From contig NZ_CP115300.1 of the NCBI RefSeq assembly GCF_027625935.1, forward strand, positions 7,130,001-7,194,000: 64,000 nt of DNA. Reading direction: 5' to 3'. This document shows positions 2,576 through 32,309 of this stretch, piece by piece (position 1 is the first letter of the stretch; each line of letters begins with the position of its first letter). The stretch is from Streptomyces camelliae (lineage in GTDB: Bacteria; Actinomycetota; Actinomycetes; Streptomycetales; Streptomycetaceae). The position numbers and the translations under genes are program-made. The notes under the pieces are model-generated. The model had not been told where the DNA came from and made no database searches. It saw nothing but the letters and a program-made list of their open reading frames with translations.

Positions 2576-3604
2576 ATGAGCCAGGCGGTCAGGACGAGGC
2601 CCGAGGGCAGTGGGCAGCCCCTGAGCGAGGCGTACGACACGGCGCTGCTCGATCTGGACGGGGTGGTGTACGCGGGCGGGAACGCGATCGTGCACGCGGT
2701 CGACTCGCTGGCGGTGGCGCGTGCGGGCGGGATGCATCTGGCGTACGTCACGAACAACGCGCTGCGGACGCCGGACACGGTGGCGGAGCACCTCACAGAG
2801 CTGGGCATACCGACAGGCGCTGACGATGTCATCACGTCCGCGCAGGCGGTGGCGCGGCTGATCAGCGAGCAGGTGCCGGCGGGGGCGCGGGTGCTGGTGA
2901 TCGGTGGTGAGGGGCTGCGGGTGGCGCTGCGCGAGCGGGGGCTCACGCCCGTGGAGTCGGCGGACGACGATCCGGCGGCGGTGGTGCAGGGGTTCGGCGG
3001 GCCCGAGCTGACCTGGGGGCGGTTCGCGGAGGCGTCGTACGCGGTGGCGCGCGGGGTGCCGTGGTTCGCGTCCAACACGGATCTGACGATTCCGAGCGGG
3101 CGGGGCATCGCGCCGGGCAACGGGGCGGCGGTGGAGGTCGTGCGGATCGCGACGGGCAAGGAGCCGCAGGTCGCGGGCAAGCCGCTGCCGCCGATGCACA
3201 GGGAGACGATCATACGTACCGGTGCGAAGCGGCCGCTGGTGGTCGGGGACCGGCTGGACACGGACATCGAGGGGGCGTTCAACGGCGGGGTCGATTCGCT
3301 GCTCGTGCTGACCGGCGTCACCGACGGCGCCCAGCTGCTGGCCGCGCCGCCGCAGCACCGGCCGACGTACGTGGACGCGGATCTGCGCGGGCTGCTCACC
3401 GGGCAGCCGGAGGTCGACCCGCTCACGGAGGGCTTCCGGTGCGGTGGCTGGACGGCGACGGCCGGCGCGGACCGACTGGAGCTGGAGGGTGACGGCGAGC
3501 CGCTGGACGGCCTGCGGGCGCTGTGCGCGGCGGCCTGGACGGCGGCGGGCGAGGGTTCCTGCGAGCTGGACGGGGGGAAGGCGCTGGCACGTCTCGGACT
3601 GTGA
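2576..3604 (+). CDS. HAD-superfamily (NagD/PGP-type) phosphatase, likely glycerol-3-phosphate phosphatase
   Basis: The 342-residue protein carries HAD motif I as DLDGVVYAG (nucleophile D26, acid D28), motif II around YVTNNALRTP, the C2-type cap seen in NagD-like enzymes, a motif III lysine in VAGKPLPPMH and motif IV as GDRLDTDIEGA. The C-terminal ~70 residues form an extra segment. In mycobacteria the positional equivalent upstream of tlyA is Rv1692, a D,L-glycerol-3-phosphate phosphatase that recycles phospholipid polar heads; that activity is inferred here from family and synteny. GAGGAG lies about 10 nt before the ATG. Confidence 0.88.
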   Translation: MSQAVRTRPEGSGQPLSEAYDTALLDLDGVVYAGGNAIVHAVDSLAVARAGGMHLAYVTNNALRTPDTVAEHLTELGIPTGADDVITSAQAVARLISEQVPAGARVLVIGGEGLRVALRERGLTPVESADDDPAAVVQGFGGPELTWGRFAEASYAVARGVPWFASNTDLTIPSGRGIAPGNGAAVEVVRIATGKEPQVAGKPLPPMHRETIIRTGAKRPLVVGDRLDTDIEGAFNGGVDSLLVLTGVTDGAQLLAAPPQHRPTYVDADLRGLLTGQPEVDPLTEGFRCGGWTATAGADRLELEGDGEPLDGLRALCAAAWTAAGEGSCELDGGKALARLGL

Positions 3605-3635
3605 CGCTTATGCACCCAAGGATCGAGATCGGTAG

Positions 3636-3654
3636 CGAGGGTAGGCTAACCTAA
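3636..3654 (+). promoter_or_regulatory. Iron box (DmdR1/IdeR operator) for the siderophore importer
   Basis: The 19-mer CGAGGGTAGGCTAACCTAA matches the IdeR/DmdR consensus TTAGGTTAGGCTAACCTAA at 16 of 19 positions. It ends 4 nt before the GTG start of the first permease, so bound repressor would cover the promoter or start region. It predicts expression under iron limitation. Confidence 0.85.
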
Positions 3655-3658
3655 CCTC

Positions 3659-4702
3659 GTGTTGGTCGACAGTCCTCCGGAACAGCGCGCGGAGACCGCC
3701 CCCGCGCCTCCAAGTCGCAAGGCGGTACGGGCCCTTGGGCTCCTGCTCTCCGTCGCGGTCCTGGTGCTCGTCGCCCTGGCGAGCATCGCGATCGGGGCGA
3801 AGGCGCTCTCGCCGGACCAGGTCTGGCACGGCCTGTTCCATGGCAGGGGGACGTACGGCGACGTCGTCGTGGACGAGCGGCTCTCGCGCACGGTGCTCGG
3901 TCTGCTGGCCGGTGCCGCGCTCGGTCTGTCCGGTGCCGTGCTCCAGGCGCTCACCCGTAATCCGCTGGCCGATCCCGGGCTGCTCGGGATCAACGCCGGT
4001 GCCTCGGCCGCCGTCGTCACCGCCATCACCTATCTCGGCGTCACCAGCCTCACCGGCTACGTGTGGTTCGCCTTCCTCGGCGCGGCGGCGGTCGGCGCGC
4101 TGGTGTGGTTCCTCGGCGGCAGCCGGGGCGCCACCCCGGTCCGGCTGGCGCTCGCCGGTACGGCGATCAGCGCGGCCCTGTACGGCTATCTCCAGGCCGT
4201 GATGATCATGGACGACGCGGCACTGGGCAAGATGCGCTTCTGGACGGTGGGTTCGCTGGCCTCGGCCACGAACTCCACCATCCTGCAGGTGCTGCCCTTC
4301 CTCGCGGCCGGCATGCTCCTCGCGCTCGGGCTGGCCCGGCCGCTGAACGCCGTGGCGATGGGCGACGACACCGCCCGCGCCCTCGGCGCCCACCTGGGCC
4401 GCACCCGTGCGCTCGCCATGCTGGCAGCCACCGTGCTGTGCGGTGCCGCGACCGCCGCCTGCGGCCCGATCGTGTTCGTCGGCCTCATGGTGCCGCACGT
4501 CGTGCGCTCCTTCACCGGGCCCGACCTGCGCTGGATCCTGCCGTACGCCACGGTTCTGTCGCCCGTGCTGCTGCTCGGCGCCGATGTCCTCGGCCGGGTC
4601 GTGGCCCGTCCCTCGGAGCTCCAGGTCGGCATCGTCACCGCTCTGATCGGCGGCCCGGTCTTCATCTTTCTCGTACGACGGCGGAGGACGGCCCAGCTGT
4701 GA
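3659..4702 (+). CDS. Siderophore ABC transporter permease 1 (FecCD family)
   Basis: This 347-residue polytopic protein belongs to the FecCD/BtuC family. It has an N-terminal membrane segment (ALGLLLSVAVLVLVALASIAIG), the RLSRTVLGLLAGAALGLSGAVLQALTRNPLADPGLLGI signature region (residues ~77-115) and the cytoplasmic coupling segment ending MGDDTARALGAHLGRTR. About ten membrane helices are expected. It would pair with the second permease to import ferric siderophores. Translation starts at GTG 3659, just 4 nt after the iron box, so a leaderless or very short-leadered transcript is possible. The stop overlaps the next start (GTGA). Confidence 0.93.
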   Translation: MLVDSPPEQRAETAPAPPSRKAVRALGLLLSVAVLVLVALASIAIGAKALSPDQVWHGLFHGRGTYGDVVVDERLSRTVLGLLAGAALGLSGAVLQALTRNPLADPGLLGINAGASAAVVTAITYLGVTSLTGYVWFAFLGAAAVGALVWFLGGSRGATPVRLALAGTAISAALYGYLQAVMIMDDAALGKMRFWTVGSLASATNSTILQVLPFLAAGMLLALGLARPLNAVAMGDDTARALGAHLGRTRALAMLAATVLCGAATAACGPIVFVGLMVPHVVRSFTGPDLRWILPYATVLSPVLLLGADVLGRVVARPSELQVGIVTALIGGPVFIFLVRRRRTAQL

Positions 4703-5757
4703 AGACCCACTCCACGAGCCGGACCGCGAGCCGTGCCGTGCGCACTCCCGGTGGGCTGTCCCTCCGCGTGGACCCGCGTGCCCTGATCGTCGTCGTCCTG
4801 CTGCTGGCCGCCGCCTGCGCGGCCGGTGTCGCGCTGATCGGCACCGGCGACGCGGGGATTCCGGCGGCCGACGTGCTGAAGACCCTCGCCGGGAACGGCA
4901 CCGCGTACCAGGACTTCATCGTGAACGAGCTGCGGCTGCCGCGCGTGCTGGTCGGTCTGCTGGTCGGCGCCTCGCTCGGTCTCGGCGGTGCGCTGTTCCA
5001 GTCCGTCTCCCGCAATCCGCTGGGCAGTCCGGACGTCCTCGGTCTGTCACAGGGTTCGACGGCCGGTGCGCTGGTCGTGATCGTGCTGATGTCCGGCACC
5101 TCCGCGCAGGTCACCTTCGGTGCGCTGGTCGGCGGCCTGGTGACCGGGTGCGCCATCTATCTGCTCGCCTGGAAGCAGGGCGTGCACGGATACCGGCTGG
5201 TCCTGGTCGGTATCGGTGTCTCCGCGATCGCGACCGCGGTCAATGGCTATCTGCTCACCAAGGCCGACCTGGTCGACGCGGCCCGCGCGGTCGTGTGGAT
5301 GACCGGCTCCCTCAACGGCCGGGACTGGGACCAGGTCTGGCCACTGCTCGCCCTGTGCGCCGTCCTCGTCCCGCTGGTCCTCGCCAACGCGCGCGGTCTT
5401 CGGATGATGGAGATGGGCGACGACGTCGCGAACGCCCTCGGGGTGCGTGTGCAGCGCGTCCGGCTGGTGCTGATGGTCTCCGCCGTACTGCTCACCGCCG
5501 CCGCCACCGCGGCCGCCGGCCCCGTCAGCTTCGTCGCGCTCACCGCACCGCAGCTCGCCCGGCGCCTGACCCGCTCGCCGGGCCCGAACCTCGTGCCCTC
5601 CCTGTGCATGGGCGCCGCCCTGCTGGTTGCCGCCGACTGGGCCTCCCAGCGTCTCTTCGGCGCCGACCAGCTGCCCGTCGGCGTGGTCACCGGCGTCCTC
5701 GGCGGCGGCTATCTGCTGTGGCTGCTGGTCACCGAGCGCAGGGCGGGCCGGATATGA
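4699..5757 (+). CDS. Siderophore ABC transporter permease 2 (FecCD family)
   Basis: The 352-residue second FecCD permease has ELRLPRVLVGLLVGASLGLGGALFQSVSRNPLGSPDVLG near residues 75-115 and the coupling segment MGDDVANALGVRVQRVR. Its GTG start overlaps the previous stop by 4 nt, which implies translational coupling and a heterodimeric channel. It overlaps the ATPase gene in the same way at its 3' end. The operon has no binding-protein gene, so it must borrow one encoded elsewhere. Confidence 0.93.
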   Translation: MKTHSTSRTASRAVRTPGGLSLRVDPRALIVVVLLLAAACAAGVALIGTGDAGIPAADVLKTLAGNGTAYQDFIVNELRLPRVLVGLLVGASLGLGGALFQSVSRNPLGSPDVLGLSQGSTAGALVVIVLMSGTSAQVTFGALVGGLVTGCAIYLLAWKQGVHGYRLVLVGIGVSAIATAVNGYLLTKADLVDAARAVVWMTGSLNGRDWDQVWPLLALCAVLVPLVLANARGLRMMEMGDDVANALGVRVQRVRLVLMVSAVLLTAAATAAAGPVSFVALTAPQLARRLTRSPGPNLVPSLCMGAALLVAADWASQRLFGADQLPVGVVTGVLGGGYLLWLLVTERRAGRI

Positions 5758-6620
5758 AGCGCATGCACGGCGGGTCGGATGCGCGCGGCACGAACCCGAA
5801 CACCCCGAGGAGCACTGTGAACCGCCTGTCCGCCGAGAACGTCACCCTCGCCTACGACCAGCGCGTCATCGCCGAGCAGCTGTCGGTGGAGATCCCCGAC
5901 AACTCCTTCACGGTGATCGTCGGCCCGAACGCGTGCGGCAAGTCGACGCTGCTGCGGGCGCTGTCGCGGATGCTCAGGCCCAGCGAGGGCCGGGTGCTGC
6001 TCGACGGGCAGGTCGTCCAGTCGATGCCCGCGAAGAAGGTCGCCCGGACCCTCGGCCTGCTGCCGCAGTCGTCCATCGCGCCCGACGGCATCACCGTCGC
6101 CGACCTCGTGGGCCGTGGCCGCTACCCGCACCAGGGCCTGCTGCGCCAGTGGTCGGCCGAGGACGAGCGGGTCGTACAGGAGTCCATGCGGCAGACCGGG
6201 GTCGACGGGCTGGCCGACCGGTACGTCGACGAGCTGTCCGGCGGGCAGCGCCAGCGGGTGTGGATCGCCATGGCGCTGGCCCAGCAGACCCCGCTGCTGC
6301 TCCTGGACGAGCCGACCACCTACCTCGACATCCAGCACCAGATCGACGTCCTCGACCTGTGCGCCGAGCTGCACGAGGAGCAGGGGCGCACACTGGTGGC
6401 CGTGCTGCACGACCTCAACCACGCGGCCCGCTACGCCACCCACCTGATCGCCCTGCGCGGCGGCGAGGTCGTCGCCGAGGGCGCCCCGAACGACGTCGTC
6501 ACGGCCGAACTGGTCGAGGAGGTCTTCGGGCTGCGCTGCCAGATCATCGACGACCCGGAGACGGGCACCCCGCTCGTCGTCCCGGCGGCCAGGAAGGCGC
6601 GGGTCACAGCAGCTGGCTGA
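5754..6620 (+). CDS. Siderophore ABC transporter ATP-binding protein (FepC-like)
   Basis: The 288-residue ATPase has Walker A GPNACGKST, signature LSGGQRQR, Walker B LLLLDEPTT and the switch histidine in VLHDLNHAARYA. It matches the FepC/FhuC subfamily and energises the two FecCD permeases before it. The ATG at 5754 overlaps the permease stop (ATGA); an internal GTG at 5818 (VNRLSAENVTLAYDQ) lies closer to the family's usual start and may be the true one. Its last codons (VTAAG) lie inside the first copy of a 26-bp tandem repeat derived from the tail of the neighbouring SCP2 gene. Confidence 0.93.
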   Translation: MKRMHGGSDARGTNPNTPRSTVNRLSAENVTLAYDQRVIAEQLSVEIPDNSFTVIVGPNACGKSTLLRALSRMLRPSEGRVLLDGQVVQSMPAKKVARTLGLLPQSSIAPDGITVADLVGRGRYPHQGLLRQWSAEDERVVQESMRQTGVDGLADRYVDELSGGQRQRVWIAMALAQQTPLLLLDEPTTYLDIQHQIDVLDLCAELHEEQGRTLVAVLHDLNHAARYATHLIALRGGEVVAEGAPNDVVTAELVEEVFGLRCQIIDDPETGTPLVVPAARKARVTAAG

Positions 6621-6655
6621 GCCGGAAGATCACAGCAGCTTCCTGAGCCGGAACA
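6604..6655. repeat. 26-bp tandem duplication covering two convergent stop codons
   Basis: Copies 6604-6629 and 6630-6655 match at 23 of 26 positions (TCACAGCAGCT...GAGCCGGAA). On the minus strand the right copy encodes the SCP2 C-terminus and stop (FRLRKLL then TGA) and the left copy would encode FRLSQLL then TGA. On the plus strand the left copy supplies the last residues and stop of the ATPase. Confidence 0.9.
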
Positions 6656-6977
6656 GGTCCAGCAGGCTCGCCTCCAGCCGCACCCGGCCTCTGCCCCAGG
6701 CGGTCGCGAAGTTCAGCTCGCCGCCCACCAGGGCCACCAGGTCGTCCCCGGCCATGGCGAGCCTGATCTGCGCCTTGTCGTGCGGTGGGCCGGGGTGGGT
6801 GTCGTCCACCTCGATCCGGCCGTCGGTCATCCGGCCGACGAAGGTGACGTCCAGGTCGGTGATGTGACAGGTCACCGAGCGGTCCAGGGCGGCGGCCGCC
6901 CGGACGTCGCCCTCGGCGCCCTGCATGTTGTCCGAAAGCTTGCCCAGTGCGGCGCGGCACTCCTCGATCGTGGCCAT
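6630..6977 (-). CDS. SCP2 sterol-binding-like domain protein
   Basis: This 115-residue protein consists of a single SCP2-like domain: N-terminal helix (ATIEECRAALGKLSDNM), strands VTCHITDLDVTFVGRM, DKAQIRLAMAGDDLVALVGGEL, and a hydrophobic C-terminal helix ending in LLDLFRLRKLL. SCP2 domains bind lipids non-specifically; partner and role are unknown here. The ATG at 6977 is preceded by a weak GGGGG site. It converges on the siderophore ATPase gene with only 9 nt between stops. Confidence 0.82.
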   Translation of the reverse strand: MATIEECRAALGKLSDNMQGAEGDVRAAAALDRSVTCHITDLDVTFVGRMTDGRIEVDDTHPGPPHDKAQIRLAMAGDDLVALVGGELNFATAWGRGRVRLEASLLDLFRLRKLL

Positions 6978-7019
6978 CGCCCCCGACGGTACCCCAGCGG
7001 TTCGCGATAGCGTCGGGGC

Positions 7020-7289
7020 ATGAGCGACTCGGTACCGGAGACGGAGATCCCCGCGGAGGCGCGGGAAGCGGCGGAGGCGTACGATCCGGCCGCGCCCGCC
7101 CCCCTGAACGTCCCGCGCGCCCCCACCGGCAACGCCGAGGTCGACGCCCAGCTCGACCGGCTCGCCGACACCGACCACCTCGCCACCGACGGACACGTCG
7201 AGGTGTACGAGGATGTACATCGGGGGCTGCGCGACGCGCTCACCGCGCTCGACGCCCGCCCGGGACCTCCCGTGCCCCCACGGCCGTGA
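7020..7289 (+). CDS. Small acidic protein upstream of tlyA (Rv1693 positional equivalent)
   Basis: This 89-residue acidic protein is proline- and alanine-rich at both ends. Its core (TGNAEVDAQLDRLADTD...YEDVHRGLRDALTALD) is a predicted helical hairpin that recurs in small actinobacterial proteins encoded directly before tlyA. It has no recognisable catalytic motif. It ends 31 nt before tlyA and is probably cotranscribed with it. It diverges from the SCP2 gene with 42 nt between starts, so both promoters lie in that short gap. Confidence 0.75.
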   Translation: MSDSVPETEIPAEAREAAEAYDPAAPAPLNVPRAPTGNAEVDAQLDRLADTDHLATDGHVEVYEDVHRGLRDALTALDARPGPPVPPRP

Positions 7290-7320
7290 CGAAAAAACAA
7301 AAGCAGGAGCTGAACCGAAC

Positions 7321-8136
7321 GTGGCAGGAGTCGCACGCCGTCGTCTGGACGCGGAGCTGGTCCGGCGGAAGCTCGCGCGCTCGCGCGAGCACGCCAGCCA
7401 GCTGATCGCCGCCGGGCGGGTCACCGTCGGCAGAACCGTGGCGACCAAGCCGGCCACGCAGGTGGAGACGGCCGCGGCGATCGTCGTCCAGGCCGACGAC
7501 AGCGACCCCGACTACGTCTCCCGGGGCGGCCACAAGCTCGCCGGCGCGCTCAAGGCCTTCGTCCCGCAGGGGCTCGTGGTCGAGGGCCGGCGCGCGCTGG
7601 ACGCCGGCGCGTCCACCGGCGGCTTCACCGACGTGCTGCTGCGCGCGGGCGCCGCGCAGGTCGTCGCCGTGGACGTCGGATACGGCCAGCTCGCCTGGTC
7701 TCTCCGGAACGATGAACGCGTCACCGTCAAGGACCGTACGAACGTGAGGGAGTTGACGCTCGACGCGATCGATGGGGAAGCTGTGGATCTTGTCGTGGGT
7801 GATCTGTCCTTCATCCCACTCGGGCTGGTGCTGCCGGCCCTCAAGCGGTGCGTGAAGCCGGACGCCGACCTGGTGATGATGGTCAAGCCGCAGTTCGAAG
7901 TGGGCAAGGAACGGCTCGGTAGCGGGGGTGTCGTACGGAGTCCGCAGCTGCGGGCGGAGGCCGTGCGGGCAGTGGCCGAGAAGGCCTGGGAGCTGGGGCT
8001 CGGGGTGCGTGGTGTCACCGCGAGTCCGCTGCCCGGGCCCTCGGGCAATGTCGAGTACTTTCTCTGGCTGCGGTCCGGGGCTCCCCGCCTGGACCCGGCC
8101 GACGTCGACCGTGCAGTGGCGGAGGGGCCGCGTTGA
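7321..8136 (+). CDS. tlyA: TlyA family rRNA 2'-O-methyltransferase
   Basis: This 271-residue protein has an N-terminal S4 RNA-binding domain (RRRLDAELVRRKLARSREHASQLIAAGRV, residues ~5-65) followed by an FtsJ-type SAM methyltransferase fold with LDAGASTGGFTDVLL as SAM-binding motif I and VVGDLSFIPL further on. TlyA enzymes methylate 16S and 23S rRNA cytidines (C1409/C1920 in mycobacteria) and make ribosomes capreomycin-sensitive. The GTG at 7321 gives the family's usual length, with AGGAG about 11 nt upstream. Its stop overlaps the NAD kinase start. Confidence 0.93.
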   Translation: MAGVARRRLDAELVRRKLARSREHASQLIAAGRVTVGRTVATKPATQVETAAAIVVQADDSDPDYVSRGGHKLAGALKAFVPQGLVVEGRRALDAGASTGGFTDVLLRAGAAQVVAVDVGYGQLAWSLRNDERVTVKDRTNVRELTLDAIDGEAVDLVVGDLSFIPLGLVLPALKRCVKPDADLVMMVKPQFEVGKERLGSGGVVRSPQLRAEAVRAVAEKAWELGLGVRGVTASPLPGPSGNVEYFLWLRSGAPRLDPADVDRAVAEGPR

Positions 8137-9050
8137 CACAGAACCTGGCGCGTACTGTTTTCCTGCTCGCCCACACCGGGCGGCCCGCGGCGATCCGCAG
8201 TGCGGAACTCGTCGTCAAGGGGCTGCTCCGGCATGGCATCGGGGTGCGGGTGCTGGAGGAGGAGGCGCGCGACCTGCCGCTGCCCGAGGAGGTGGGGCTG
8301 GTCAAGGAGGCGACGCCGGACTGCCTCGACGGGTGCGAGCTGCTGATCGTCCTCGGCGGCGACGGAACGCTGCTGCGGGGTGCCGAGTTCGCCCGGGCGT
8401 CCGGGGTGCCGATGCTCGGCGTCAACCTCGGACGGGTGGGATTCCTCGCGGAGGCCGAGCGCGACGACCTCGATCGGGTGGTCGACCGGGTGGTGGCGCG
8501 GTCGTACGAGGTCGAGGAGCGGATGACCGTCGACGTCGTGGTGCACCGCAACGGGGACATCGTGCACACCGACTGGGCGCTGAACGAGGCGGCCGTGCAG
8601 AAGGCCGGCGCCGAGAAGCTGCTGGAAGTCGTGCTGGAGATCGACGGGCGCCCGGTGACGGGGTTCGGCTGCGACGGTGTCGTGCTGTCCACGCCGACCG
8701 GGTCCACGGCGTACGCCTTCTCCGCCGGCGGGCCGGTGGTGTGGCCCGAGGTGGAGGCGCTGCTGATGGTGCCGATCAGCGCGCACGCGCTGTTCGCCAA
8801 GCCGCTGGTGACCTCGCCGGACTCCGTGCTGGCCGTGGAGGTCCTGCCGCACATCCCGCCGGGGGTGCTGTGGTGCGACGGGCGGCGGACCGTGGAGCTG
8901 CCGCCCGGGGCGCGGGTGGAGGTGCGGCGGGGGGCGGTGCCGGTGCGGCTGGCCCGGCTGCACCACTCGTCGTTCACGGACCGGTTGGTGGCGAAATTCG
9001 CGTTGCCGACGACTGGATGGCGGGGGGCGCCTCACCACTCGACGGAGTGA
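8133..9050 (+). CDS. nadK: NAD kinase
   Basis: The 305-residue enzyme phosphorylates NAD to NADP. It contains the GGDGT motif (residues 75-79, LIVLGGDGTLLRG), GVNLGRVGFLAE, the NE..V motif in ALNEAAVQK and the glycine-rich GVVLSTPTGSTAYAFSAGGP segment. The likely start is TTG 8133, overlapping the tlyA stop as TTGA, with GGAGGGG 5 nt upstream; an in-frame ATG is not available nearby. It sits between tlyA and recN as in mycobacteria. Confidence 0.95.
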   Translation: MTQNLARTVFLLAHTGRPAAIRSAELVVKGLLRHGIGVRVLEEEARDLPLPEEVGLVKEATPDCLDGCELLIVLGGDGTLLRGAEFARASGVPMLGVNLGRVGFLAEAERDDLDRVVDRVVARSYEVEERMTVDVVVHRNGDIVHTDWALNEAAVQKAGAEKLLEVVLEIDGRPVTGFGCDGVVLSTPTGSTAYAFSAGGPVVWPEVEALLMVPISAHALFAKPLVTSPDSVLAVEVLPHIPPGVLWCDGRRTVELPPGARVEVRRGAVPVRLARLHHSSFTDRLVAKFALPTTGWRGAPHHSTE

Positions 9051-29351: not shown

Positions 29352-29396
29352 CACCATCCCCCTTTACTGTCAACGTGACGATAAAGGGGGATGGTG
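29352..29396 (+). promoter_or_regulatory. 45-nt near-perfect inverted repeat before the ADP-ribosylglycohydrolase
   Basis: Arms 29352-29371 and 29377-29396 match at 18 of 20 positions around an AACGT centre. The inner part reads TTTACTGTCAACGTGACGA. The right arm contains the AAAGGGGG that should serve as ribosome binding site for ATG 29402. It may act as a DNA operator (the TGTCA/TGACG core resembles NrtR-type sites as I remember them) or as an RNA hairpin hiding the binding site. It can also end the upstream transcript. Confidence 0.7.
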
Positions 29397-29401
29397 TTTC
29401 T

Positions 29402-30409
29402 ATGTCCAAGCGCGCGGCCACCGGGGCGCTGATCGGCCTCGCTCTCGGGGACGCCCTCGGCTTCCCGACCGAATTCAACGACGTGCCCTCGATCCTCGCC
29501 AAGTGCGGGCCCTGGCGGGAGATGGAGCTGCCGAAGCGGGCCTTCGTCTCCGACGACACCCAGATGACCCTCGCCGTCGGGCGGGCCCTGCGCACGGCCA
29601 CGGAACGCGGCTACCTCGCGCCCAAGCGGCTGGAGCGGCCGCTGCGCGAGGAGTTCGTGGACTGGTTCCACTCGCCCGAGAACAACCGGGCCCCGGGCAA
29701 CACCTGCCTGACCGCGTGCAACCTGCTCGTCGAGGAGCGGCGGCCGTGGCAGGACGCCAGCCAGACCGGCTCCAAGGGCTGCGGGGCCAACATGCGCGTC
29801 GCCCCGGTCGGGCTCGCCCCCGGCCTGAGCGACGCCCAGCGCTCCGGCGCCGCCCAGTTGCAGGCCGCGCTCACCCACGGCCACCCCACCGCGCTCGCCG
29901 CCTCCGACCTCACCGCCCACGCCGTCCACCTGCTCGCCCGGGGGACGGATCCGGCGGGGCTCGTCGGACAGCTGCGCTCGTACGCGCTCGACCACCGCAC
30001 GCACTACGACCACACCTGGCTCGGCGACCTGTGGACCCGCGCCCAGGACCCCAGCGCCGAACACTTCATCGCGCGCGGCTGGGACGAGTGCCTCGCGGTC
30101 CTCGACCGGCTCCAGGAGGCCGTGCGGACCGCCTCCCCGGAGACCGACCCGTGCCTGGCCACCGGGGCCGGCTGGATCGCCGAGGAGGCCCTCGCCACCG
30201 GGCTGCTGTGCTTCCTGCTCTTCCCCGACGAGCCCGTCACCGCCCTGCGCCGGGCCGCCTGCTCCTCCGGCGACTCCGACTCCATCGCCTGCCTCACCGG
30301 CGCCTTCGCGGGAGCCTGGCTGGGCGCGGACGCCTGGCCCGCCGACTGGGCCGGGCGGATCGAGTACCGAGGGGACCTGTCGGCGCTCGGAGCGCTCTGG
30401 GACGCTTAG
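29402..30409 (+). CDS. ADP-ribosylglycohydrolase family protein (DraG-like)
   Basis: The 335-residue protein has the all-helical ARH/DraG signatures: GALIGLALGDALGFPTEF at the N-terminus, the metal-binding SDDTQMTLAVG (residues ~44-54), the CGANMRVAPVGL loop and the C-terminal GDSDSIACLTGAFAGA with the second metal ligands. Such enzymes remove ADP-ribose from arginine, serine or nucleic-acid bases or hydrolyse related adducts; the substrate here is not determined. The ATG at 29402 lies 5 nt after a large inverted repeat. A nucleotidyltransferase gene starts 4 nt after its stop, so the two form an operon. Confidence 0.92.
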   Translation: MSKRAATGALIGLALGDALGFPTEFNDVPSILAKCGPWREMELPKRAFVSDDTQMTLAVGRALRTATERGYLAPKRLERPLREEFVDWFHSPENNRAPGNTCLTACNLLVEERRPWQDASQTGSKGCGANMRVAPVGLAPGLSDAQRSGAAQLQAALTHGHPTALAASDLTAHAVHLLARGTDPAGLVGQLRSYALDHRTHYDHTWLGDLWTRAQDPSAEHFIARGWDECLAVLDRLQEAVRTASPETDPCLATGAGWIAEEALATGLLCFLLFPDEPVTALRRAACSSGDSDSIACLTGAFAGAWLGADAWPADWAGRIEYRGDLSALGALWDA

Positions 30410-30413
30410 GTCC

Positions 30414-31157
30414 ATGATCGAAGACCTCGACCTCGCGCCCGTGGTCGCCGAACAGCCCGACCCGCTGCTGTTCGCGACCGTCTCCGGAGCCCACCTCTAC
30501 GGCTTCCCCTCGCAGGACTCCGACGTGGACCTTCGCGGCGTCCATCTGCTCCCCGCCGCCGCCCTCGTCGGCCTGCGCGAGCCGGAGGAGACCCGCTCGC
30601 GGGCCTGGGTGCGGTTCGGTGTCGAGCTGGACCTCGTCACCCACGACCTGCGCAAGTTCGTACGGCTGATGCTCCGGCGCAACGGCTATGTGCTGGAGCA
30701 GCTGCTGTCGCCCCTGGTCGTGCACACCGGCGACACGCACCGGGAGCTGGCCGCGCTGGCGCCCGGTGTCCTTACCGGCCACCACGCCCACCACTACCGC
30801 GGGTTCGCGGTGACCCAGTGGCGGCTGTTCGAGAAGACCGGCGAACTCAAGCCGCTGCTCTACACGTTCCGGGTGCTGCTCACCGGCATCCACCTCATGC
30901 GCAGCGCCGAGGTCCAGGCCCATCTGCCCACGCTGCTGGACGAGATCGACGCCCCCGGCTATCTGCCCGAGCTGATAGCCGCCAAGGCGGAGCGGGAGCA
31001 CGGCACCGCCGAGGTCGCCCACGCGCGCGTGGAGGCCGATGTGGAGCGGCTGCACGCCTTGCTCGACGAGGCCCAGGCCGCCTCAGCCCTCCCCGACGCG
31101 CCCACCGCGTACGACGCCCTGCACGACTTCGTGGTCCGTGTGCGGCTGCACGGCTGA
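30414..31157 (+). CDS. Pol-beta-type nucleotidyltransferase 1 (YcgL/RlaP-like)
   Basis: This 247-residue protein has a minimal nucleotidyltransferase core: SGAHLYGFPSQDSDVDLRG, with GAHLYG at 25-30 and the metal-binding SDVD at 36-39, then LDLVTHDLRKFVRLMLRRNGYVLEQLLSPLVV. This matches COG3541, the family including proteins called RlaP in RNA-repair cassettes (family knowledge). The GS of the classic motif is GA here. A helical domain follows with HHYRGFAVTQW and a C-terminal Glu/Ala-rich helix. It is tightly coupled to the ADP-ribosylglycohydrolase gene. Its 3' end overlaps the convergent paralogue by 75 nt. Confidence 0.85.
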   Translation: MIEDLDLAPVVAEQPDPLLFATVSGAHLYGFPSQDSDVDLRGVHLLPAAALVGLREPEETRSRAWVRFGVELDLVTHDLRKFVRLMLRRNGYVLEQLLSPLVVHTGDTHRELAALAPGVLTGHHAHHYRGFAVTQWRLFEKTGELKPLLYTFRVLLTGIHLMRSAEVQAHLPTLLDEIDAPGYLPELIAAKAEREHGTAEVAHARVEADVERLHALLDEAQAASALPDAPTAYDALHDFVVRVRLHG

Positions 31158-31826
31158 GTCCCGGCGCACCCGGAACAGAAAACCCGCCACGCGCGCGTGG
31201 TCCGGCTCCGCCGGCAGCGGGGTGCGGTGCAGGGCCTGCTCCGCCTGTGCCGCCAGCCGGGCCATGCGGGACTCGATCTCCGCCCAGGCGACCTCGCCCC
31301 GCTTCACCGCCAGCAGCCACTCGCGCCGGTCGCCGACGTCGATCCGTAGCTCGCCGGTGCGCAGCAGATCGCGGGCGGTCATCAGCAGGCGCAGCAGATG
31401 CATGGCGTGCTTCCAGCGCGGGGCGCCGGTCCTGCGTACGTCGGCGTCCAGCTTGCGGCGCTGGCCGACGGCGTAGCCGGTGAAGGTGTCGTAGACCTTC
31501 CGGGAGAGGAAGGCGTCGCGCAGGGACAGCAGCTCCCGGCCGGTGTCGTCCATGTGCTCCACCAGCGGCGAGTGCAGGCATTCCAGGATGTTCGGATTGC
31601 CGCGCAGCGCCAGCTCGCAGAACCGCTCCAGCTCCCAGGAGAACTCCTCCTCGCCCGGCCCCTCCACATGCGCCGGCGGCTTCTCGAACCGCCAGAACAG
31701 GGGAGTGGGGGCGAGGAACACGCCCCGCCGGTCGGTGTCGCTCGCGTCCGTGGCCAGGCCGAACGCCCGGGACCCCATGACACAGGCGTAGATCGTGTGG
31801 TCGCGCACCAGGGCTTCGGGCTCCAT
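31083..31826 (-). CDS. Pol-beta-type nucleotidyltransferase 2 (YcgL/RlaP-like)
   Basis: This 247-residue paralogue of the neighbouring nucleotidyltransferase lies on the opposite strand. It keeps the full motif GSRAFGLATDASDTDRRG (GSRAFG 18-23, SDTD 29-32) and then ELERFCELALRGNPNILECLHSPLV, which aligns with the same part of the partner. The helical part holds KHAMHLLRLLMTARDLLRTG. The last ~25 residues are encoded within the antisense of the other gene and look less conserved. Substrate, most likely an RNA end or nucleotide, is unknown. Confidence 0.85.
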   Translation of the reverse strand: MEPEALVRDHTIYACVMGSRAFGLATDASDTDRRGVFLAPTPLFWRFEKPPAHVEGPGEEEFSWELERFCELALRGNPNILECLHSPLVEHMDDTGRELLSLRDAFLSRKVYDTFTGYAVGQRRKLDADVRRTGAPRWKHAMHLLRLLMTARDLLRTGELRIDVGDRREWLLAVKRGEVAWAEIESRMARLAAQAEQALHRTPLPAEPDHARVAGFLFRVRRDSAVQPHTDHEVVQGVVRGGRVGEG

Positions 31827-31847: not shown

Positions 31848-32309
31848 TCACGCGAGTTTGATCGAATTTCCCTGCACCTTGATCGCCTTCCCGGGCAGTG
31901 GCCGTTTCGCCGGGCCGTGCGCCACCGTGCCGTCGGCGATGTGGAACTTGCTGCCGTGACACGGGCAGTCGATCGTGCCGTCCGCGACCCTGTTCACCGT
32001 GCAGCCCAGGTGGGTGCAGATCGCCGAGAAGGCCTTGAAGTTGCCCTTGGAGGGCTGCGTGACGACGACCTTCTGATCCTTGAAGACCTTGCCGCCGCCC
32101 TCCGGGATGTCGCTCGTCTTGCCCAGGTCCTTTCCGGTGCCGGCGGTCTTGACGCCGCTTCCGCTCACCGTGTTTCCACTCTCTGCGCTGCTGGGGCTCT
32201 TGACGCTGCCGCCGCTCTTGTTGCCGCTCCCGCACGCCGTCACGGGTACGGCGAGTGCCACCGCCGCGCCCGTCACCAGAACCGCCCGCCGCTTCACGTC
32301 CTCGGCCAT
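31848..32309 (-). CDS. Rieske [2Fe-2S] lipoprotein
   Basis: The 153-residue protein begins with a Tat/lipoprotein-type signal (VKRRAVLVTGAAVALAVPVTAC, lipobox cysteine about residue 26), followed by a Ser/Gly linker. The Rieske domain has CTHLGC and CPCHGS as cluster ligands. It is therefore exported, lipid-anchored and binds a 2Fe-2S cluster. It lacks a catalytic domain, so it may be an electron-transfer protein. It is divergent from aroH. Confidence 0.9.
   Translation of the reverse strand: MAEDVKRRAVLVTGAAVALAVPVTACGSGNKSGGSVKSPSSAESGNTVSGSGVKTAGTGKDLGKTSDIPEGGGKVFKDQKVVVTQPSKGNFKAFSAICTHLGCTVNRVADGTIDCPCHGSKFHIADGTVAHGPAKRPLPGKAIKVQGNSIKLA

Follow-up and report, generated by a model that had tools for sequence, protein, structure and literature searches.

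A draG-rlaP gene pair of Streptomyces camelliae lies behind a predicted NrtR-type operator and probably belongs to an NAD regulon

NrtR regulons, ADP-ribosylglycohydrolases of the DraG/ARH type and nucleotidyltransferases of the RlaP family are known already, and what appears to be new, judging from the literature searched, is their combination together with an apparent handover from one regulator to another. The locus in question lies in a stretch of 64,000 nucleotides of the Streptomyces camelliae genome (contig NZ_CP115300.1, positions 7,130,001 to 7,194,000 of the forward strand), which as a whole is called the window. In it a draG-like gene is followed by the RlaP gene rlaP1, and a second RlaP gene, rlaP2, runs towards them from the other strand. 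Surveys of NrtR may have listed draG-like genes.

Passages of PMC6800001 report that ADP-ribose releases the regulator MsNrtR from DNA, and passages of PMC11535050 report the same for the NrtR of Pseudomonas aeruginosa. The system described here resembles known NrtR regulons in its regulator with a NUDIX and a winged-helix domain, its palindromic operator, its predicted targets, which include nadA and the promoter of the regulator itself, and the presence of pnuC and nadR in operons. It differs in having draG, rlaP1 and an SPFH operon as additional members, in that control has apparently moved from a local regulator to an unlinked paralogue, and in the operator sequence, which for mycobacterial NrtR is given in a passage of PMC6800001 as GTTTTCGA-N7-TCGAAAAC. 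As to RNA, a passage of PMC7824862 predicts that RlaP restores lost nucleotides ahead of ligation, and a passage of PMC9503650 connects RNA repair with ADP-ribose through KptA. According to passages of PMC11833690, a Streptomyces coelicolor relative of KptA/Tpt1 attaches ADP-ribose to RNA 5' phosphates, and an enzyme of the same species that resembles ARH takes it off RNA phosphate ends. Neither an NrtR-draG-rlaP operon nor a handover between regulators was found in the literature at the level of titles, abstract openings and single passages; Rodionov 2008 and Burroughs & Aravind 2016 may mention parts.

The features that carry the argument have these positions in the window:

29352-29396, between rsuA and draG: inverted repeat of 45 bp, with 21-nt arms that are 90% complementary and a 3-nt spacer
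29363-29385: predicted NrtR-type operator core, TTTACTGTCAACGTGACGATAAA, from genome-wide pattern scans
29402-30409, + strand: draG, likely ATG at 29402, 335 aa; PF03747 at 215 bits (cut-off 26.2)
30414-31157, + strand: rlaP1, 247 aa, 4 nt 3' of draG; PF10127 at 184.4 bits (cut-off 23)

The data suggest that draG and rlaP1 form a two-gene operon of an NrtR-controlled, ADP-ribose-responsive nicotinamide adenine dinucleotide (NAD) regulon, run in trans by an unlinked paralogue, NrtR2, and this reading is considered probable. The pair would be the remainder of a larger nicotinamide-riboside salvage operon, pnuC-nadR-nrtR-draG-rlaP1. A preliminary description of this DNA had noted a DraG-like gene and a nucleotidyltransferase gene 4 nt apart on one strand, and the coordinates and the PF03747 and PF10127 matches bear this out. 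The start that it gave, 29352, is the start of the inverted repeat and not of a gene, and it named neither the operator nor the NAD-salvage operon.

The named Streptomyces-type loci used for comparison are the best 80 of at least 576 relatives, and hence the closest ones; a wider set of flanks came from 20 related regions. In 76 of the 80 loci rlaP1 directly follows an intact draG gene, and in 73 the next gene is a convergent rlaP2. The linkage of the three genes across Streptomyces, which the preliminary description had proposed as a check, was thereby confirmed for these loci. Counting any match, DraG is found in 77 loci and an RlaP2-type protein in 78. L091, which is among the four loci where draG is not called, has a draG split over three frames at 4801-5993 with an 18-of-18 operator before it, and L039 holds a 27-residue draG remnant at 3997-4077; the source genome of the latter, G072, encodes an RlaP1 94% identical to that of the window.

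An nrtR gene lies upstream of draG in 62 of the 80 loci. In the wider regions a NUDIX plus NrtR-type gene precedes draG in 14, the operator directly precedes draG in three and draG is uncalled in three; the NUDIX protein of L034 matches PF21906 (NrtR_WHD). Five of these 20 regions (L044, L045, L046, L049 and L051) have the order operator-pnuC-nadR-nrtR-draG-rlaP1, and the L045 proteins match PF04973 (pnuC), PF13521 and PF01467 (nadR), and NUDIX with PF21906 NrtR_WHD (nrtR). In those five the pair is thus part of an operon for taking up and salvaging nicotinamide riboside, which itself encodes an NAD-type regulator. In the window genome pnuC, nadR and nrtR are absent beside draG and the operator is retained; its one distant PnuC, at C1:7534715, has riboflavin-operon-like surroundings by eye and no operator site (up to two mismatches) nearby. 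On an RlaP1 tree of 87 proteins, a quick tree with a single long outgroup row, the 15 draG-first rows need 2 changes against a shuffled mean of 14.1, so the draG-first loci are essentially one lineage, as expected from a single loss of nrtR.

The operator was scored at 18 positions in each locus, with 310-bp windows tiled across each of the 80 loci as comparison (mean score 8.5-9.2); the tile maxima are no control, because the tiles contain the operator. Scores of 17-18 were reached by 13 of 14 draG-first loci, which are the best operator matches of all. At nrtR-first loci the score is at least 14 in 58 of 59, and at pnuC/nadR-first loci at least 16 in all three. None of the four rlaP1-first loci scores above 10, which leaves no operator at that place. 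A GTC(A/G)-N3-TGAC-like core with A/T flanks precedes the first gene of the operon, be it pnuC, nrtR or draG. Each whole-genome scan was run beside a control pattern, which gave 0 matches. The pattern TTTATTGTCANNNTGACGATAAA, with up to two mismatches, was found in 26 of 150 genomes of the genus, before draG in 11, pnuC in 13 (seen with 1.5 kb of flank only), nrtR in one and an SPFH gene in one. In the window the operator sits within the inverted repeat (arms CACCATCCCCCTTTACTGTCA and TGACGATAAAGGGGGATGGTG), which overlaps the likely ribosome-binding region of draG. Folded as RNA, the repeat gives -33.3 kcal/mol (z = -7.47 against 200 shuffles), a very stable hairpin that would cover this region; its outer arms are largely kept in the draG-first loci L008 and L028 and partly in L031.

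The candidate regulator is encoded by an unlinked gene, nrtR2 (C1:2499016-2499771), whose product matches PF00293 and PF21906 above cut-off and has 61% identity with the local NrtR type found in L034. The seven other Nudix matches in the genome are weak (expectation value, E, of 5.7e-6 or worse). NrtR2 was found in 28 of 30 genomes searched, whether a local nrtR is present or not, and the two genomes without a match have the most fragmented assemblies. A scan of the own genome with a 17-position pattern, TTATCGTCNNNNTGACGATAA, at up to two mismatches gave four sites at three promoters only (control 0):

C1:2334626 and C1:2334660: double site before the SPFH gene
C1:2499782: site before nrtR2
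C1:7159364: site before draG

Of the six places with exactly three mismatches, four are inside called genes, one is more than 300 nt from any called gene and one lies before nadA. This weaker site stands 10 bp before nadA (identified by PF02445) and is kept in 28 of 28 genomes at 14 of 17 positions, a level compared with 0 of 580 background windows that reach 13. Since the nadA site was not used in writing the pattern, it is independent support. The nrtR2 site is likewise kept in 28 of 28 loci, above all 532 background windows, and the SPFH site in 17 of 17 loci, above all 328. The genome holds the marks of an NrtR regulon, namely a regulator with NUDIX and NrtR winged-helix domains and a palindromic site common to NAD genes and the regulator's own promoter. 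We infer from these sites that NrtR2 controls draG-rlaP1 in trans.

Several observations weigh against this reading. The scan pattern was written with the draG, nrtR2 and SPFH sites known, so their recovery is not independent, and the draG site departs from the own-genome pattern at 2 of 17 positions. The site of the remaining draG-first locus, L092, is poor (13 of 18). One variable half-site position is T or C at draG-first sites and mostly A, sometimes G, at nrtR-first sites; this would fit a changed regulator and is no proof of one. The genome of one draG-first locus, G291, has a further unlinked nrtR-like gene beside NrtR2 (G291:C12:10788-11468, 59% identical to NrtR2), possibly the displaced local regulator. 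That nrtR was lost, rather than gained elsewhere, would follow from parsimony on a tree rooted by one long outgroup row. The SPFH gene is present in just 17 of 30 genomes. Four of the 80 loci have rlaP1 without an intact draG, and L066 and L069 have draG without an adjacent rlaP1, so neither gene depends strictly on the other. Beyond Streptomyces, an RlaP1-like protein is linked with NAD salvage in one viral contig (L168/L313), 1 of 16 loci.

A mechanism that would join these parts starts with repression of draG-rlaP1 by NrtR2 in trans. NAD consumption would free ADP-ribose, which would lift repression as reported for other NrtR proteins, and release of NrtR2 would switch on draG-rlaP1, nadA and the SPFH operon together. 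DraG would then take ADP-ribose off a conjugate, a protein or a nucleic-acid phosphate end, and RlaP1 would move a nucleotide from a nucleoside triphosphate to an acceptor that DraG frees or exposes, most likely an RNA 3' end. The regulatory half of this predicted scheme is well supported by sequence. Taken together, the locus is a real and conserved module, probably an NAD-regulon operon that contains an enzyme of RNA-repair type, and its identity is not the one guessed in the preliminary description. The label of RNA-repair protein has been given to RlaPs mostly because of the genes around them, and here one RlaP clade is tied to a predicted NAD-sensing regulon in a large genus that is open to experiment. 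At this locus the operator is defined and a candidate regulator is named, and in this genome a predicted co-regulated operon stands beside Pnkp-Hen1. It is also a clean candidate for an operon that has no repressor of its own and keeps its operator while a paralogue takes over. It makes testable the idea that NAD consumption, by ADP-ribosylating toxins, Tpt1 or defence NADases, induces RNA-end processing.

The window DraG shares PF03747 and the metal-binding motifs with DraG/ARH ADP-ribosylglycohydrolases. Its SDDTQMT and GDSDSIA motifs are intact and align with TDDTEMS and GDADTTG of a solved DraG (ARH3 was aligned too); we take these to be the metal-binding motifs. It differs from the nitrogenase-reactivating DraG (TIGR02662), scoring 73.9 bits against an equivalog cut-off of 337.05, and from the ADP-ribosylarginine hydrolase Tri1 (NF041672), with 59.7 bits against 490. 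A second gene with ARH-like motifs, judged by eye, lies in the own genome about 12 kb from nrtR2 (L410 7858-8763), and a phmmer comparison of its product with the window DraG gave no match at E up to 10. It is possibly the counterpart of S. coelicolor SCO5809.

Both RlaP proteins have what we take to be the Pol-beta signature, G...SDxD and a third carboxylate. In RlaP1 the acids D37, D39 and D73 are invariant among 15 Streptomyces RlaP1 proteins; RlaP2 keeps D30 and D32, and its aligned third acid is Glu60 instead of Asp. RlaP1 is like the RlaPs (PF10127) of RNA-repair sets in family score, Pol-beta signature and catalytic acids, but it goes with NAD-salvage genes, and none of the RNA ligase references matched near it. 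Structure prediction of both nucleotidyltransferases, another check proposed earlier, succeeded for one of them. The RlaP1 model has a predicted local distance difference test score (pLDDT) of 89.5 and fold matches that include protein and small-molecule adenylyltransferases (DrrA, GlnE, AadA and ANT). The RlaP2 model, with a mean pLDDT of 72.6, is too weak in the catalytic half and had no match below E 0.6 in the PDB. Compared with HalB of the Hailong anti-phage system, identity is 9-11% with no match at the sequence level, and Foldseek ranks aminoglycoside nucleotidyltransferases equally high. For both RlaPs PHROGs returned nothing but nucleotidyltransferase families, and PADLOC gave a weak BrxA match for RlaP2 (E 0.0043). 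A protein homology search, with at least 7999 candidates scored, did not illuminate function, the named relatives among the 120 matches listed being all Streptomyces.

A profile search of the 9.6-Mb genome with PF10127 found rlaP1 and rlaP2 and no other gene. In the order, PF10127 was found in 173 of 197 genomes; RlaP1-type matches (at least 160 bits, counted by eye; the next lower row has 130.6) occur in 65, and 64 of these have a second PF10127 match. Across actinobacteria an RlaP1 match was found in 16 of 396 genomes (245 genera), 13 of them in the genus and three outside it and weak.

The two proteins are 32% identical. In a tree of 21 proteins, which is unrooted (midpoint only for drawing), has several long branches flagged and places L168 and L174 loosely, RlaP2 groups with Streptomyces and Gordonia phage RlaPs, apart from RlaP1, L168, L174 and two Caulobacter/Brevundimonas phage RlaPs, at support 97/99. 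A recent tandem duplication was rejected because of this identity and this split. The preliminary description had taken both RlaPs for a retained paralogue pair of one cassette, and this view is not upheld, the two being in separate clades and rlaP2 following a Rieske gene on the opposite strand. RlaP2 would instead come from a convergent gene with its own transcription and belong to a clade linked to RNA repair. It shares its clade with actinophage RlaPs but has the Rieske gene as neighbour, whereas three of the four phage RlaPs of this clade adjoin an RNA ligase or polynucleotide kinase.

Six of 22 phage matches were opened, and an RNA ligase or polynucleotide kinase is near the RlaP gene in five. 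The kinase is next to it in pSt2308 and BRock and the ligase in Daredevil; in CcrColossus and Domovoi a ligase is about 1.4 kb and 3.3 kb away, respectively, and in the Kela region nothing recognisable was found near the RlaP gene. Of 80 viral contigs from the RlaP2-clade alignment, a set that includes Daredevil and BRock, two sources of reference genes, 46 have a polynucleotide kinase (44) or RNA ligase match in their flanks, a count that has no background rate for the kinase. The other 34 match none of the references, and NAD-salvage references match in 0 of the 80. The nearest viral relative of RlaP1 (40%) is L168, from contig IMGVR_UViG_3300047317_001031. Its gene row (2866-8205) reads Ro60/TROVE - RlaP - NMNAT/Nudix - NadV, which combines RNA chaperone/repair and NAD salvage in a single case.

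Links to RNA repair in the host genomes were sought by phmmer (E up to 1e-5) with three phage RNA ligases, two polynucleotide kinases, Pnkp, Hen1, KptA and Ro60 as references. None of these matched in the window, the 20 wider regions or the 80 loci, a search that left RtcB and other ligase families aside and unlabelled neighbours unidentified; the earlier statement that the window encodes no RNA ligase agrees with this. Elsewhere the own genome encodes KptA/Tpt1 and, about 4.8 Mb from the window, Pnkp (846 aa, PF16542) with Hen1 (PF12623). The SPFH operon is convergent with Pnkp-Hen1 there and stands under tandem NrtR-like operators (L061 4626-7167, L260 683-4695, C1 ~2334626-2341195); its second gene has a sub-threshold NAD-kinase match (E 0.019). 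Six other genomes were opened; two of them, G043 and G072, have Pnkp near the SPFH operon and four do not. All that is seen of the Hen1 and Pnkp genes in G072 is one N-terminal and one C-terminal piece, adjacent to each other; in G043 the 12 kb fetched gave no Hen1 match, but Pnkp is right at the end of that stretch (L265 4409-5418 and L261 3-2612 cover G072/G043).

The preliminary description had proposed an RNA-repair or ADP-ribose cassette. In its RNA-repair form DraG would unblock ADP-ribosylated RNA ends, both RlaPs would refill nucleotides and Pnkp-Hen1, encoded elsewhere, would ligate. The linkage of DraG and RlaP and the phage RlaPs near ligases or kinases speak for it, as do the published prediction for RlaP, the S. 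coelicolor enzymes that modify RNA 5' phosphates and reverse this (with a KptA/Tpt1 present here), the same kind of operator at the SPFH operon convergent with Pnkp-Hen1, the viral row with Ro60, and an rsuA-type pseudouridine synthase gene directly before the operon. However, the repair references, which did not include RtcB and other ligase families, went unmatched around the pair and those operon partners that could be recognised belong to NAD salvage, Pnkp was near the SPFH operon in only two of six other genomes (in pieces in one), and orthology of the published ARH enzyme to the window DraG is not established. Since draG-rlaP1 comes with an NrtR-type operator and, in the larger operon, with genes for NAD salvage, an NAD/ADP-ribose role is better supported for the pair than RNA repair, and a dedicated repair cassette seems possible but doubtful; the RNA-repair idea stands at the family level only. 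Leaving RNA out altogether, RlaP1 might nucleotidylate a small molecule or protein in NAD/ADP-ribose turnover while DraG recycles ADP-ribose conjugates. The operons with pnuC and nadR, nadA in the same predicted regulon and the fold matches to DrrA, GlnE, AadA and ANT are in keeping with this, but a common fold proves no function, a ligase or kinase stands near RlaP in five of the six opened phage regions, and Ro60 is found with the NAD-linked viral relative as well. We regard this as rather unlikely. Still less probable is that RlaP1, induced by ADP-ribose through NrtR2, serves NAD/ADP-ribose stress signalling and not RNA repair; it would make a nucleotide product, which its HalB-like fold would allow to be an oligonucleotide or else a signal in the form of nucleotidylated ADP-ribose or protein, and DraG would either provide the ADP-ribosylated substrate or remove it.

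The cassette might also be a decaying remnant, kept by drift after its regulator and transport genes had gone; draG is broken in L091 and L039, and rlaP1 is in pieces in G012, G018 and G027 (assembly errors possible). Both window genes, however, are intact with aligned catalytic residues, and the best-matching operators of all belong to 13 of the 14 draG-first loci, which makes decay improbable. Finally, the inverted repeat could be a mere rsuA terminator or RNA hairpin and no operator, as the very stable fold might indicate. But a terminator scan found 0 such sites, the core precedes the first gene of the operon whichever it is, and similar sites stand before nrtR2, SPFH and nadA, so this seems most improbable next to an NrtR-type operator.

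The remaining features of the locus lie 3' of the pair:

31083-31826, - strand: rlaP2, 247 aa; PF10127 at 117.2 bits (cut-off 23)
31083-31157: 75-nt convergent overlap of rlaP1 and rlaP2, from open reading frames, alignment and the RlaP2 model
31848-32309, - strand: Rieske-domain protein gene (PF00355), 21 nt upstream of rlaP2

The 75-nt overlap from the other strand had been noted before and was confirmed. It encodes a conserved C-terminal helix of RlaP1 and a variable, low-confidence tail of RlaP2, whose residues 230-247 have pLDDT below 50. The last ~25 residues of RlaP2 are the antisense of the conserved RlaP1 C-terminus. The overlap is 75 nt long in L032-L037 and L039 and 4 nt or none in L041, L046 and L051; the tail is missing in L046 and L051 and so resembles a read-on extension. 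A functional role for the overlap was considered, but the overlap was judged incidental, given its varying length among relatives and the low-confidence antisense tail. The Rieske gene adjoins the RlaP2 gene in 16 of the 20 wider regions and, being on the same strand, is likely its transcriptional partner. The left flank holds scpB and the rsuA-type gene and the right flank the Rieske gene, aroH, tyrA and cmk (Rieske and rsuA-type by Pfam, the rest by eye).

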